Source: a virus. Taken from it: a DNA stretch of 22,248 nucleotides. The translations under genes were made by a program, and so were the position numbers. The first letter of the stretch is position 1, and every line of letters begins with the position of its first letter. This document shows, in pieces, positions 1 through 22,116 of the stretch. The notes below the pieces were generated by a model, which was given only the letters and a program-made list of their open reading frames with translations, was not told where the DNA came from and searched no databases. The DNA lies in the IMG/VR virus record IMGVR_UViG_3300024273_000566, positions 1 through 22,248 of that record. The stretch is one strand, 5' to 3'.

Positions 1-3000
1 CGCCTAAATAATCTATAGTTGCTACAGGAGCAAAGTTCAATCTAAACTCTGCAATATTTCCTGTAAAACCTGTACCTGAGCCAGCCCAAAAAGCGGGACC
101 CGCGTTATAGTTTAAAGCATAAGCAGCGGGTAGTGTTGCTTCTCTATTTTGTATTAAACCCCCGTAACTATTAGGTGAATATACTCTCAAGGCTGTGCCC
201 GTACCGAATGATTCAGCTTTCAAAGCATCACCATTTACGGAAGAAGCAGATATAGCGTGGTTTGTACTTAATGAAGTCGATACAATTGAGCCGTTTACTT
301 GAAGTTTTTCAGCCCCGCCTGTTCCGCCATTTATTTTAACGCTTGTACCATCGTCAGAAATTTGAGAATCTACCCCTGTAGTAGTCGTTCCAAACTTAAC
401 TAATTTGTTAACTGTTCCTGATAATCCACCACCTCCGCCTGTGATGTCCGATAGCATCGCAAAAGTACCATTCTTGTCAGGCACTTGTTGGGTTCTTGCT
501 GCTGTCAATAGATTAGTGTCTAAATTAAGGCCTATACCCGTTGCTGCTACTTTTGCAAAAAACGCATTTCCTTGAGATACTGAGAAAAGGGTTTTAAAAC
601 TATCAATATACCAATTAAAAGTACGCACACCATACGAAAAGATGCCCGTCGAACTATCTGCACCATCTCTGTATGTTTGATAGTATGATGACTTATCCCA
701 ATGTTTTGGTCCGTAAAATGTCTGCGCCCCATTAATCAATAAACCTGCGTTTGTTCCTCCAGCAGGAATTGTGAAGCCCGTACCGTTGGTGTTAGTAACT
801 GCACCGCTAGTCGCTGCAGGAACATAAGCTAAATCCGCTGCGCCTCCTCCACCTATACCTGCTAAGGAGGTCGTAGTACCGTTGCCCAATAAAACATCGT
901 CTGCTGTAGCTCCTGTTTTTATGAACTTATTTCCTGTAATATCTCCTAAATAGTTTACACTTGCTTTAGTTACATGGTTAAGTGTAAAGTCGGCTATGTT
1001 TGATGTACTTCCTGTAGCTATATTTGCTTTAAAGGCGGGACCAGTACCTAGGTTCTGTCCAATTAAGGCGTAGTTACCAGAGCTACTTGACTGGAATATG
1101 CCGCCAATAGCCCCTACAGAATACCCATTAAAAGCATTTCCCGAACCTGAAAGAGAAACTTGAATTCCATTACCATCGTTTCCTGACACGTAAAGTCCTT
1201 CTCCTGATCCTGTGAAGGATACGTTTACTTTGCCGTTTACTTGCAAGGATTCAGCGCCTCCAGTTCCTCCATTTACCAAAACTCTTGCAGGCAGAATCAA
1301 GTTTCCTGAATCTTCTGATAAATAGATCTTAGACGCGCCTGCACCTATTGCTAAAACATCTTGTCCAAAAGGACTTCCTGATATACTGGATATACTAAAC
1401 GTAGCGTTATCACTCCCTTCAAGTGTTATTGGTTTGTCTGTATTCAAAGACAATCCGCCAGCAGTAATTACCGAGGAAATATTTGCCGCTCCATTTACTT
1501 GTAGTTTTTCAACCCCACCTGTACCGCCTGCAATTTTAACAGAAGTACCATCGTCAGTAATTTGAGAATCTACACCAGTTGTAGTAGTTCCAAACTTTAC
1601 TAAATTATTAACTGTACCAGAAAGTCCTCCTCCTCCACCTCCTACTGCAGTTTCTATTACTTTCCCTGCAGAATCTACAGCAAGAGCATAAGTAGCCGTA
1701 CCTGTTTTAGAACCTGAACCGTAGAATGGTAATTCTAAATCTCCATTAGCCTTAGATGTTAAAGTTGTATTAGTTACAGTATTATCTACTGTTTTTACAT
1801 CAAACGCACTTGTATAAGTAAGTGAATTTCTATCTGTCCATCTATAATCCAAACTACCTTGACTTTGCACCGTTCCTTCATCACTAACATTTGATGAAAA
1901 ATCAATACCGTTGCTAGCAGTATCACTTCCCGATGCTGTACTAGTAATTAATATATTTCTAGTTACAGGTTGTGAACCTGAAGCTGCTCCTACTAACGTT
2001 CTGTTGAAGAAACCAGCATAATTATTTGAAGAAGCATCTATTCCAAATCCACTTCCTGAATATGTTTCTATTCCGTTACCAGTTGTAGCACCAAAAGAAC
2101 CTCCAGCTCCTGTTGTTGCAGTTCCAATAACCCCTGTACCGCTAGTTGCATCACCCCATAAAGCTATTCCATTATTTGTATTCGTAAACTTAGAAAGAGT
2201 ATTAGACGTGCTTCCTGTCGTAGTTAATTCATAAGTCCCTGCTGCAATATTTGTGTTTTGAGTAAGGGTTCCTCCAAGCTCGATGTCGTTAACAGTTTTA
2301 GTTAAACCATTAGAAGCTGTTTCTGTGGTTCCACTTGCAGTTGCGTAATTCGGTATGTTTATAACACTTCCTACTAAAGTTGCCGCTCCAGAAGTCCCTG
2401 TTGTGGTCAAAGAAATCTCGTCTTGCTTTCCATTAAATGTGGACCAATCCGTTGAGTTTAAAGCTCCTCTGTTAGAAGCGCTGGCGGTTGGTACATTCAG
2501 AGTTATTACTGGTGTAGTAGTTCCTGTCGCAACGCTTGAACTAAGATCGATTCCTGTTGTACCTAAAGTTAACGAACTTACATTAGTAACCGTACCTGCG
2601 TTAGAGGTGTATCCACTTGGGTTAGTAGAATTATAAGGCGTAAAACCTAATGTAGGTTGCTTTCCGTTTAACTGAGTTTGTATTGAACTAGTCGGATCCA
2701 CATAACTCATAGTTGTAGCTGTAACTCCGTTTGTAGAAGTCGGTGTAATAGCCCCTAACGTTAAAGATATAGCTGGAGTTGTGGTAGATGTAGCAACGGT
2801 TCCGGACACCCCGTTTGCAGATACAATAGAAACGTCAGACACAGTTCCCCCACCACCAGCGACGTAACTTGGTATATTAAGCGTAGATCCTGTCAATGTA
2901 GCTGCGCCTGACGTTCCAGTAGTTGTGAGTGTTATATTGTCTTGCTTATTACCTAAGCTTGAAGTTAGGTTTGTGACCTGACTTTCTGATATATTCCCTG

Positions 3001-4406: not shown

Positions 4407-4607
4407 TTAAGCAGGCAACGGACATTCTCCGTGATCCTCTACAGGAGGAATGTAATCTGTGTCTGAGAAGTCGTTGTTCTTAACTGATTGTAACATCCCA
4501 CTATCTGATACTAGATTGTTATTGTCGTCAAGTTGCCTATCAGTTCCGTCAGTTGTTATTTTCACTAGTTTTGAATGCCCAAGGTATCCTGTGTTTTCTG
4601 TAGCCAT
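4407..4607 (-). CDS. Small hypothetical protein in the virion gene cluster
   Basis: Encodes 66 residues, hydrophilic and acidic, with no predicted membrane segment. It ends in a Pro/Cys-containing tail, PPVEDHGECPLPA. The start codon overlaps the stop of the preceding 217-residue gene by one base (TAATG), an arrangement that suggests translational coupling and supports this ATG. It could be a short linker or an accessory virion protein. No family recognised. Confidence 0.6.
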   Translation of the reverse strand: MATENTGYLGHSKLVKITTDGTDRQLDDNNNLVSDSGMLQSVKNNDFSDTDYIPPVEDHGECPLPA

Positions 4608-20374: not shown

Positions 20375-20708
20375 GACTAGTTAGTTCTTTCTGTATCGTT
20401 GTGGTTATTTCTTTTTCTTTTGATTCTATGTATTCTTTTCTTATTACTATGTGTCCTGCTCCGTGACTTACGTCTATGGTCTTTAGAACCAGTAGATTAT
20501 CACTGAATACTTCTAGTAGTAATTTGTATTGTTTCTCTCCACGCTTTCCTAGATTTACTGGTTCGTTTAGCCTAATAGTTACTTTGATTCCAGCATCTAG
20601 CTCAATTCCCTTATCTTTAGACTGGTCCAGCTTTGGTATGTGTTTTTCTCTAGGAAGTAGTCCTGCTATAAAAGCATTACTGAAACTATCTTGTTGTGTT
20701 ACTATCAT
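20364..20708 (-). CDS. Small hypothetical protein with central beta domain
   Basis: Encodes 114 residues. After a flexible start (PREKHIPKLDQSKDKGIELD) come beta strands (AGIKVTIRLNEPVNLG; KQYKLLLEVFSDNLLVLKTI; GAGHIVIRKEYI) and a charged helix, ESKEKEITTTIQKEL. Its start overlaps the stop of the upstream gene by ATGA, so translation is coupled. No family recognised. The 119-residue plus-strand ORF at 20476-20835 crosses this gene and its neighbour antisense and is taken as spurious. Confidence 0.65.
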   Translation of the reverse strand: MIVTQQDSFSNAFIAGLLPREKHIPKLDQSKDKGIELDAGIKVTIRLNEPVNLGKRGEKQYKLLLEVFSDNLLVLKTIDVSHGAGHIVIRKEYIESKEKEITTTIQKELTSHEN

Positions 20709-21169
20709 CTTTTCTCTAGTGCTAAGATTGAGCCTAATAAATCAGGATTCAATTGTGATTTTAATTCTTCTATTGTTTCAGGAACTTCAGGTTCTGAATA
20801 AGTATCAACTCCTACTGAAGAGCTTCTCGGCCTAGCACTAGATTTTAACCAATTATCAGACATCATCGCTAATTGATCTTGAGTATTAGCGTTTCCGAGC
20901 CCTCTTGACTTTTGCATTGTAAAACCTCCTTGTTTAAGTTGCTGAGATAGTCCAGAACCCATCCTACTTGCTGGTATTCCAACACTATTTAAAGCGTCTG
21001 TTCTTAATTCTTCTGCACGAAGAATCAAGGCATCTATTTTTCCGTTAGTTATGAATGGATTGTATTTACCACTAGATAACCTTCTATCCTCTGAAAGATC
21101 GTTATAAGCCTTTTCGAACACGCGTATAGACTCTTTGCCTTGCTGCAATAAATGCTCATCATTCTCCAT
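20705..21169 (-). CDS. First gene of the late block, hypothetical
   Basis: Encodes 154 residues, polar, with helical N-terminal part (GKESIRVFEKAYNDLSEDRR; GKIDALILRAEELRTDALNS), a Ser/Gly/Arg-rich disordered middle (MGSGLSQQLKQGGF; SSARPRSSSVGVD) and an acidic helical end (PETIEELKSQLNPDLLGSIL). A disordered middle between two helical ends suggests a scaffold- or adaptor-like protein. It is the first ORF after the structured leader at 21195-21637, so it is the likely first translated gene of the operon. No family recognised. Confidence 0.7.
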   Translation of the reverse strand: MENDEHLLQQGKESIRVFEKAYNDLSEDRRLSSGKYNPFITNGKIDALILRAEELRTDALNSVGIPASRMGSGLSQQLKQGGFTMQKSRGLGNANTQDQLAMMSDNWLKSSARPRSSSVGVDTYSEPEVPETIEELKSQLNPDLLGSILALEKR

Positions 21170-21194
21170 AACAGATTGATTTAATGGATTATTA

Positions 21195-21630
21195 AAATTG
21201 ATTTATACGGCGTTTAACCGTAGATAATGTTTGTGTAGTAATGTTTAATAGCCATTTAAGAACATAGCTATTTCCTACCCTGAAGTTGCCGTGGAAGGCT
21301 TTCGGGTCGAGACTTAATTGCTTAAGTCCGAATTTAACTTTGAATTTCCGTAGTTGTTATTCAGATGCTTTCCATATTCAATGAACTTAGGTTTGCATCC
21401 TATCCTTTGCATTTAGTTTTTTACGGTTGATCCTAACCAGTTCTAAATACCCTACATTATATCAAAGCTCTTTTTAGTCTATCGGGGACAACTCGTTTGC
21501 TATGTTACTTAGAATATGCAAACTACAACCCAACTTCTAATCCTATTACTCGTGCTGGAAAACTTTTTTTCAAAAGCAAAGAACACGTATTAACCTTACA
21601 GGATGATAGATATCGCTATCTGACTGTTAC
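21195..21630 (-). ncRNA. Candidate structured RNA or structured 5' leader of the late operon
   Basis: About 430 nt with no convincing protein gene but a near-continuous chain of hairpins. Stems seen by eye: 21206-21210/21218-21222, 21247-21252/21267-21272, 21278-21306 (CCC, GAA and GCC paired with GGC, TTC and GGG), 21311-21317/21322-21328 (7 bp, closed by a GCAA tetraloop on the minus strand), 21383-21391/21432-21443, 21495-21500/21518-21523, 21551-21587 and 21605-21609/21616-21620. The GNRA loop argues for minus-strand RNA. GC content is close to that of coding DNA, unlike the AT-rich gap at 21640-21780. Start-less open frames exist on both strands (minus 21192-21356, plus 21437-21643), as often happens in structured RNAs. 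It could instead be a decayed gene. Confidence 0.5.
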
Positions 21631-21637
21631 AAATATA
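21630..21637 (-). promoter_or_regulatory. Bacteroidota-type -7 element (TATATTTG) for the leader and late block
   Basis: Minus-strand TATATTTG fits TAnnTTTG. Transcription would start shortly downstream, near the hairpin at 21605-21620, and run through the structured leader into 21169. No obvious TTTG at -33; the upstream sequence is A-rich. Confidence 0.5.
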
Positions 21638-21790
21638 CTTTAAAAGAATATAGAAATTTGTTTTTTTTTGTATTTTATTTAAATCAAGGACTTAGTATTT
21701 CATATCGTATGGCAGGAGTTTATTTTTAAAAAAAATTTTTTATTTTTCTAAGAGTGTGAGATGATCCATATACCAACCGCCCTGCTTTTT
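21638..21790. other. AT-rich divergent intergenic core
   Basis: No ORF of note. It holds a run of nine T (from about 21661) and an A8-T6 block (about 21728-21741), both of which could bend or melt DNA. It lies between the minus-strand late promoter and the plus-strand small gene, so it may contain overlapping promoters or an origin-like region. I see no iterons. Confidence 0.4.
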
Positions 21791-21796
21791 TATAAT
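21791..21796 (+). promoter_or_regulatory. TATAAT element ahead of the plus-strand gene
   Basis: A perfect TATAAT hexamer lies 62 nt upstream of the start codon at 21859. There is no matching -35 box, and the Bacteroidota TAnnTTTG motif is absent on this strand nearby. Weak evidence. Confidence 0.25.
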
Positions 21797-21808
21797 GGGT
21801 GAACCCCC

Positions 21809-21833
21809 CTAGGACTTTATACTAAAGTCTTAG
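21809..21833. promoter_or_regulatory. 25-bp imperfect palindrome upstream of the plus-strand gene
   Basis: CTAGGACTTTA and TAAAGTCTTAG pair over 11 positions (one G-U in RNA) around a TAC loop, ending 25 nt before the ATG at 21859. It could be an operator for a dimeric repressor or a leader hairpin that controls translation. No U-run follows, so it is unlikely to be a terminator. Confidence 0.5.
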
Positions 21834-21858
21834 TTAACAATACCAAACACTACGCGTT

Positions 21859-22116
21859 ATGGCATATGCTAAACTTATCAGCTCTTACGATCGACAAGGA
21901 ATTTCAGAAAAGACAGGGAAACCCTGGGCTTTTTACACAGCTATCATGGCCTTAGACGGCATGATAATTAGTGCAAGTACAGACGAATTCGTCTATAGTA
22001 CTTTGAAGGATAAGGTCGGAAAAAAATTCCGACTTTATAAGCACAACACAGTAAGAGAAGGTCTCTTAACTTGTGGTGATTACTTAGGTGAGGAAAAGAT
22101 TAAGAAACAGAAATAG
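21859..22116 (+). CDS. Small plus-strand protein of the opposite genome arm, unknown
   Basis: Encodes 85 residues, basic and beta-rich. It begins MAYAKLISSYDRQGISEKTG, then KPWAFYTAIMALDGMIISAS, and VGKKFRLYKH near residue 53. An RxGxSxKTGKPW...VGKxF layout vaguely recalls small ssDNA-binding OB-fold proteins such as inovirus gene V protein (speculative). It is the only complete plus-strand gene in the window, transcribed away from the late block, with its own terminator overlapping its stop codon. It is therefore likely a monocistronic, early or regulated transcript. Confidence 0.75.
   Translation: MAYAKLISSYDRQGISEKTGKPWAFYTAIMALDGMIISASTDEFVYSTLKDKVGKKFRLYKHNTVREGLLTCGDYLGEEKIKKQK

Follow-up and report, generated by a model that had tools for sequence, protein, structure and literature searches.

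The 460-nt non-coding gap at which the early and late genes of a crAss-like phage fragment diverge is best explained as a member of a new class of structured RNA that stands alone, probably acts in trans and is made together with the late genes, a reading to which we assign a probability of about 0.57. The minus strand of the gap has a conserved secondary structure without coding content, and the RNA occurs as one copy per phage, usually heading the late gene block behind a host-type promoter, with relatives in bacterial chromosomes. Expression of the RNA and its action in trans are inferred.

The window, by which we mean the whole stretch of DNA analyzed, is a 22,248-base virus contig in IMG/VR whose minus-strand genes include a terminase, a portal and a major head protein of crAss-like type (phrog_6681, 3e-104; phrog_6547, 1e-103; and phrog_11589, 7e-69, respectively). 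These three genes were the criterion for assignment to the crAss-like phages, and the record meets it; its terminase has up to ~43% identity to named Crassvirales terminases. The gap occupies positions 21170-21629 and its elements are listed in Table 1. Between the conserved part of the RNA and 21170, ahead of the first late gene, conservation is weaker; the protein of that gene has no close relatives in IMG/VR.

Table 1. Elements of the structured RNA and adjoining features in the window
Feature	Position	Strand	Sequence or pairing	Remarks
Promoter -7 element	21630..21637	(-)	TATATTTG	Bacteroidota type, TAnnTTTG
Structured RNA, conserved part	21255..21628	(-)		~375 nt; 83% identity to L001:6036-6552; homologues in L006 and L007; ends approximate, unmapped
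Helix P1	21540..21604	(-)	AUCCU 21600-21604 with AGGAU 21540-21544	closes 5' hairpin domain
Hairpin P1a/P1b	21551..21587	(-)	CGUGUU 21582-21587 with AGCACG 21551-21556; GCUUUU-GAAA-AAAAGU 21562-21577	within P1; GAAA tetraloop
Helix P2	21481..21534	(-)	GUUGGG 21529-21534 with CCCGAU 21481-21486	conserved core
Helix P3	21495..21523	(-)	GUUUGC 21518-21523 with GCAAAC 21495-21500	loop ends AUAG
Helix P4	21337..21468	(-)	GCUUUGA 21462-21468 with UCAAAGU 21337-21343	closes 3' domain
Helix P5	21349..21456	(-)	UGUAG 21452-21456 with CUACG 21349-21353	
Helix P6	21409..21450	(-)	GUAUUU 21445-21450 with AAAUGC 21409-21414	
Helix P7	21364..21399	(-)	GAUGC 21395-21399 with GCAUC 21364-21368	encloses CCUAAG 21386-21391 and UAUGG 21372-21376
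Hairpin P8	21312..21327	(-)	ACUUAA-GCAA-UUAAGU	GNRA tetraloop
Conserved 3' sequence	21260..21281	(-)	AGGGUAGGAAAUAGCUAUGUUC	similar sequences at 3' end of other members, compared by eye
First late gene	20705..21169	(-)		154 amino acids; no family match; ATG at 21169; outside RNA
Divergent early-side gene	21859..22116	(+)		85 amino acids; outside RNA

The gap is better conserved than the gene beside it. In L001, a contig with a terminase 86% identical to that of the window, the same gap is 83% identical over ~520 bases compared with only 41% identity over 51 residues for the first late protein. Clear homologues are present at the equivalent place in L006 and L007, whose terminases are 65% identical. 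Exact 18-mers of the region match the L001 contig only, and a blastn search of annotated phages with the window region and two members returned nothing beyond chance hits. On the RNA strand the longest open frame in the region has 54 codons, and on the opposite strand 66; the frames differ in each relative and the window and L001 are separated by indels of 1 and 7 bases, which together exclude coding.

The helices P1, P2 and P3 are kept across the class, and P4-P8 belong to the window's own lineage. In P1, double changes are seen at four of five pairs among 23 sequences and at all five among 56 sequences. The start of P1 was picked by eye when alignment A3 was trimmed, so these counts are biased towards the model; P2 and P3 directly adjoin conserved sequence and are less exposed to such bias. 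An early RNAalifold pairing of 5' AUCC with 3' GGGU was dropped for P1, which is backed by the 23 sequences. Within P1, ten of the 12 pairs of hairpin P1a/P1b have changed on both sides with every cell paired in the window, L001, L006 and L007, and all four retain the GAAA loop of P1b. The P2 helix is paired in 100% of cells with pair types GU/AU/GC, UA/UG and CG/UA/UG/AU, and in L049 a G-C pair is exchanged for A-U by changes on both sides. All six pairs of P3 have changed on both sides across the family, with GUUUGC/GCAAAC in the window compared with AGUGGC/GCCACU in L001.

In the 3' domain, all seven pairs of P4 are retained in four phages, with double changes at three of the pairs, and P5 has double changes at four of its five pairs with 95% of cells paired. 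The P6 and P7 helices are paired in 100% of cells, P6 with a single double change and P7 with double changes at three of five pairs (GAUGC/GCAUC in the window compared with GUUAA/UUAAC in L001). Hairpin P8 has double changes at two of six pairs, and its loop is GCAA or GUAA across the four phages. The two segments enclosed by P7 form what we take to be the sequence of the 11-nt GAAA-tetraloop receptor; this motif was spotted by eye, is exact only in the window and L001 and is present as a variant in L006 and L007. The motif suggests that the GAAA loop of P1b may dock into the P7 receptor to give a compact fold with tertiary contacts like those of large functional RNAs, which is an inference. 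A G-rich 3' motif, AGGGRG..A....UAUGUC, recurs at 21260-21281 of the window and at the 3' ends of L092, L097, L100, L155 and L224. Pairing of this motif with the loop of the first 5' hairpin appears possible by eye in several sequences and not in others, and is not claimed.

The compensatory changes were counted in several alignments. In a sequence-only MAFFT alignment of the four phages (A2), RNAalifold assigns 53 pairs, of which 26 have double-sided changes that keep the pair. In the hand-refined structure placed on A2, 28 of 80 pairs differ on both sides without loss of pairing and 87.9% of all cells pair, whereas sliding the partners by 1-3 columns as a control leaves 31-41% of cells paired. 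L006 and L007 are closely related so that this alignment holds few independent lineages, a weakness removed by the wider family. In the core alignment of 23 sequences 94.3% of cells pair and 93 cells carry double changes, compared with 24.7 in shuffles; for the 56 model matches 94.6% of cells pair and 235 carry double changes, compared with 67.6. The alignments are partly fitted or hand-trimmed; the 56 matches were aligned to the model itself, and two of them are probably chance. The window meets the criterion of compensatory change for a new RNA class. Read on the RNA strand, G-U cells number 106 against 10 A-C cells, and the pairing is thus a property of RNA from that strand and not of the DNA.

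The sequence-only reading had proposed a new structured RNA at the divergence point, distinct from GOLLD and ROOL, and this leading idea is supported. Its late promoter element, its gap of about 430 nt down to the first late gene without a fitting open reading frame (460 nt, ending at the ATG) and its perfect minus-strand stem with a GCAA loop (P8) all held. Two of the checks it proposed also favor the idea, as no Rfam 15 family, GOLLD and ROOL included, matches the region and the homologous gaps covary extensively. A conserved protein in one of the open frames it listed would have refuted the RNA; this was looked for, and no conserved frame was found. On the minus strand the whole 460 nt folds beyond chance, with a z of -2.97 and none of 100 shuffles reaching the same stability, whereas the plus strand gives z -0.16. 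Averaged over 54 homologues, z is -0.75 for the RNA strand and -0.63 for the opposite one; folding energy is no general mark of the class, and the case rests on covariation and not on energy. The claim that failed is a composite stem joining 21383-21391 to 21432-21443. In the window CCTAAGTTC is complementary to GAAC-TGG-TTAGG, but in the 83%-identical L001 two pairs are altered on one side without compensation (GAAC to GAAA and TTAGG to TCAGG), and covariation assigns these bases to the P6 region and to the receptor-like motif within P7. The choice among the roles it had offered (leader, packaging RNA or other) is not settled, although a stand-alone RNA is favored over a leader because one copy opposes all of its neighbors and chromosomal copies have no operon behind them.

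The extent of the class was established with a motif and a covariance model. The motif GGGTTRTA-N15..45-TGTCCCCRRTAG was scanned over 2.9 million viral contigs and gave 37 hits, 35 of which are clear members with a shared core; the remaining two, L091 and L108, are chance. The core consists of the P1 hairpin, AGA(A/C)RUYGGGUURUA, the P3 hairpin with a loop usually ending in AUAG, and WUGUCCCCRAUAG. The criterion for membership, P1-P2-P3 with the flanks AGAAGUYGGGUURUA and WUGUCCCCRAUAG, is met by the window. The covariance model R1, built from the 23-sequence core alignment, matches 54 loci at E<1e-7, mostly in viral contigs, and two further loci (L111:4371 and L159) that are probably chance. 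It recovers L045 and L049 from the terminase set and the named phage cr111_1, all missed by the motif scan. The window scores 87.5 bits (E 1e-18) and is itself among the 23 model-building sequences; its alignment with L006 and L007 is independent of R1. In five members (L088, L093, L110, L112 and L137) P3 is replaced by UGAGUAAUC...GAUGAAAAGAG or similar, resembling the bulged-G (loop E) motif.

Thirty-five of 46 viral records match R1, with one copy each. A crAss-like portal is carried by 22 of 30 tested records, several of the remainder being short fragments, and in 19 of these 22 the RNA shares the strand of the portal and lies 4-10 kb upstream, as in the window. The three exceptions are G002 and G009, phages of 141-143 kb in which the RNA is far from the portal block, and G007, in which the RNA runs against the genes on both sides with no operon behind; these placements rest on metagenome contigs. 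The next gene usually begins 190-600 nt past the core, and the first downstream genes vary in size and order.

Among named phages, the RNA of the gut phage cr111_1 (NC_055880) occupies the gap that separates the early-side genes from the first late ORF. At the RNA site cr128_1 aligns with cr111_1 over 79 bases at 77.5% identity (E 4e-5) and with crAss001 over 87 bases at 79% identity (E 6e-11), and it has the P2-P3 architecture built from other bases (AUAGGG, GUUCC/GGAAU, CCCUAU). The corresponding sequence in crAss001 is at ~645-995 (+), with TATGTTTG at about 650, and is not recognized by R1 alone. From this chain of weaker links we infer that cr128_1 and the cultured crAss001 likely carry divergent members at the equivalent place. 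Searches with R1 at E up to 1 over the whole records of phi14:2, phi4:1, p-crAss, DAC15, cr85, cr126, bajarodcaudo, ProJPt-Bp1, FPSV-S29, crAss002, cr130 and cr6 gave nothing convincing, with parts of six R1-negative named-phage records also rescanned without filters. The class is patchy or has diverged past the reach of R1, and the data do not establish it throughout the order.

The promoter evidence extends beyond the window. An exact TAnnTTTG is found upstream of P1 in 30 of 50 members compared with 3.8 expected from shuffles, most often ~20-30 nt before P1. No terminator-like site was found on the minus strand between 20600 and 21900. In crAss001 the middle and late genes are switched on at 10-30 and 30-60 min after infection, respectively, probably via the host polymerase (PMC8375218). 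The promoter evidence and this timing lead us to infer, without transcript data, that the RNA is made late by host RNA polymerase.

Of the 33 hits from a scan of 84,980 genomes most are chance, and seven loci from four genomes scored well. R1 supports copies in one Salinimicrobium and in three Bacteroidales of the rumen, which carry 1, 12 and 17 copies. Only three of 295 Bacteroidales genomes have a match; the low frequency indicates that R1 is specific and that the chromosomal form is rare. The chromosomal copies are shorter than the phage form and lie among ordinary, unrelated genes, and several have their own TAACTTTGCA promoter with a G+C-rich hairpin behind. All of these bacterial genomes are metagenome assemblies. 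The 12 and 17 short copies in G047 and G049 (loci L183-L211) are dispersed. About 12 of 26 parsed chromosomal copies lie opposite a convergent gene with a terminal T9SS sorting-domain tail (VKVGNLPARKVVVVR), and two parsed copies (G047/G049) face HNH-like gene ends. The Salinimicrobium locus L212 (G050:C16:64000-80000) has a long, phage-like form of the RNA in a bacterial contig. Judged by eye, the genes around L212, which encode helix-turn-helix and AAA proteins, resemble a mobile element, in which this copy possibly resides.

We call the RNA class new because none of the 4227 Rfam 15 models matches the region, and for the phage members and the chromosomal loci Rfam gives nothing beyond a tRNA and unrelated hits under threshold. 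The best match in the window has E 0.97, is far below the gathering score and lies outside the region. In ten phage loci nothing reaches the Rfam gathering score except a tRNA, and in six chromosomal loci there is no Rfam match over the RNA. The open-access literature searched contains no description of a crAss-like noncoding RNA, and an account we have not seen is possible. The class is thus previously uncatalogued, with members in crAss-like phages and a few Bacteroidota genomes.

GOLLD resembles it as a large structured phage RNA of unknown function often located near tRNA islands (PMC12286853, Nature 2025), and its expression is reported to rise during lysis (PMC12286853); however, many GOLLD members exceed 800 nt whereas the new RNA is ~200-450 nt with its own P1-P2-P3 core. 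ROOL likewise occurs in phages and prophages, has no known function and often lies close to tRNA islands (PMC12286853), but the solved ROOL has 659 nt and the new class is so far confined to Bacteroidota and their phages. Membership in either family would require a match to its Rfam covariance model, and there is none. OLE RNA and the raiA motif are large bacterial RNAs that were defined by covariation ahead of function; their sequence and structure are unlike the new RNA, and no Rfam match links them to it. The phi29 pRNA is a phage RNA serving virion production, but it is shorter with another fold, and the new RNA has no shown link to packaging. HK022 put and EAR RNA are structured antitermination RNAs heading a long operon, whereas the new RNA also opposes its neighbors and stands alone in chromosomes, and has no Rfam match.

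In the preferred reading, host RNA polymerase would transcribe the RNA along with the late genes, and the transcript would fold compactly via the contact between the P1b loop and the P7 receptor. It would then act in trans late, as an independent RNA or an RNA-protein particle and not as a switch for the gene behind it. Action in trans is argued from the stand-alone placements, namely G007 and the chromosomal copies. A bolder version, to which we give slightly less than even odds, is that a large share of crAss-like phages employ, at the late stage, a compact RNA machine acting in trans, be it an assembly of RNA alone, a ribozyme or an RNA-protein particle, and that a related, duplicated RNA serves bacteria of the same phylum. 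Were this true, phage and bacteria would share an RNA function hitherto undescribed.

The main rival, which remains possible, holds that the RNA acts in cis as the leader of the late operon, a 5' UTR whose structure would serve processive antitermination or set translation of the first late gene. In its favor are the strand and position of the RNA relative to the portal in 19 of 22 records, the usual distance to the next gene, the lack of a terminator-like site on the minus strand and the variation of the first genes, as expected for antitermination RNAs. Against it, the RNA in G007 faces oncoming genes, the RNA in G002 and G009 is remote from the portal block, and the chromosomal copies have no operon behind them with many facing a convergent gene; known antitermination RNAs are also smaller than the new structure. 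A leader should always be directly upstream of the operon and on its strand, which G007 and the chromosomal copies are not. The leader nevertheless retains some weight because of the position in most phages and because the window shows no terminator-like site behind the RNA (minus strand, 20600-21900). A virion packaging or assembly RNA acting on the terminase like phi29 pRNA would fit the single copy per genome, the location upstream of the packaging genes and the probable co-expression. This is unlikely, as multi-copy relatives occur in bacterial chromosomes among ordinary genes and no copy is seen in many crAss-like phages whose terminases are related; structural or biochemical data are lacking.

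A DNA element (a replication origin or a packaging or recombination site) with inverted repeats that mimic RNA helices is suggested by the divergence point of two gene blocks, where such sites often lie. We consider it very improbable because the excess of G-U over A-C cells, together with a first P2 pair that is G-U in 41 of 55 rows, places the pairing on one strand only, and promoters precede the RNA with a fixed strand. There is similarly very little to support the idea that the RNA has diverged far from GOLLD, ROOL or another known family to which it belongs; a large phage RNA of unknown role with tRNA islands downstream in cr111_1 and crAss001 is compatible with this, but the Rfam searches of the region, the phage loci (the tRNA excepted) and the RNA in the chromosomal loci argue against it. 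A degenerate or unusual protein-coding gene could draw only on the short open frames and is all but ruled out by the indels between 83%-identical copies and the different frames of each relative.

The stand-alone RNA remains the preferred reading, and its role is directly testable, since the class has dozens of members, its structure has comparative support and crAss001 likely carries a divergent version. A culture collection has both crAss001 and its host Bacteroides intestinalis (laboratory pair DSM 109066 / DSM 108646), and strand-specific crAss001 RNA-seq exists (PRJNA678472). The crAss-like phages are among the most abundant human gut viruses, and with a covariance model annotators could label a feature that currently passes for empty space. 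The chromosomal copies raise the question of whether one RNA system is common to phage and bacteria.

Two further observations concern tRNA-related sequences. Large tRNA islands follow soon after the RNA in crAss001 (L221:1683-5807) and cr111_1 (L136:7511-11507), a setting comparable with that of GOLLD and ROOL. Elsewhere in crAss001 a 900-nt gap (L222:3960-4880, minus strand) beside the early RNA-binding (TROVE) gene gp96 contains tRNA-like sequences interrupted by long inserts, with an Rfam tRNA score of 46.6 bits at 4454-4597, and also a repeated GTTACTTCAA. These tRNA-like sequences resemble the YrlA-type Y RNAs and could possibly be bound by a phage Ro protein.
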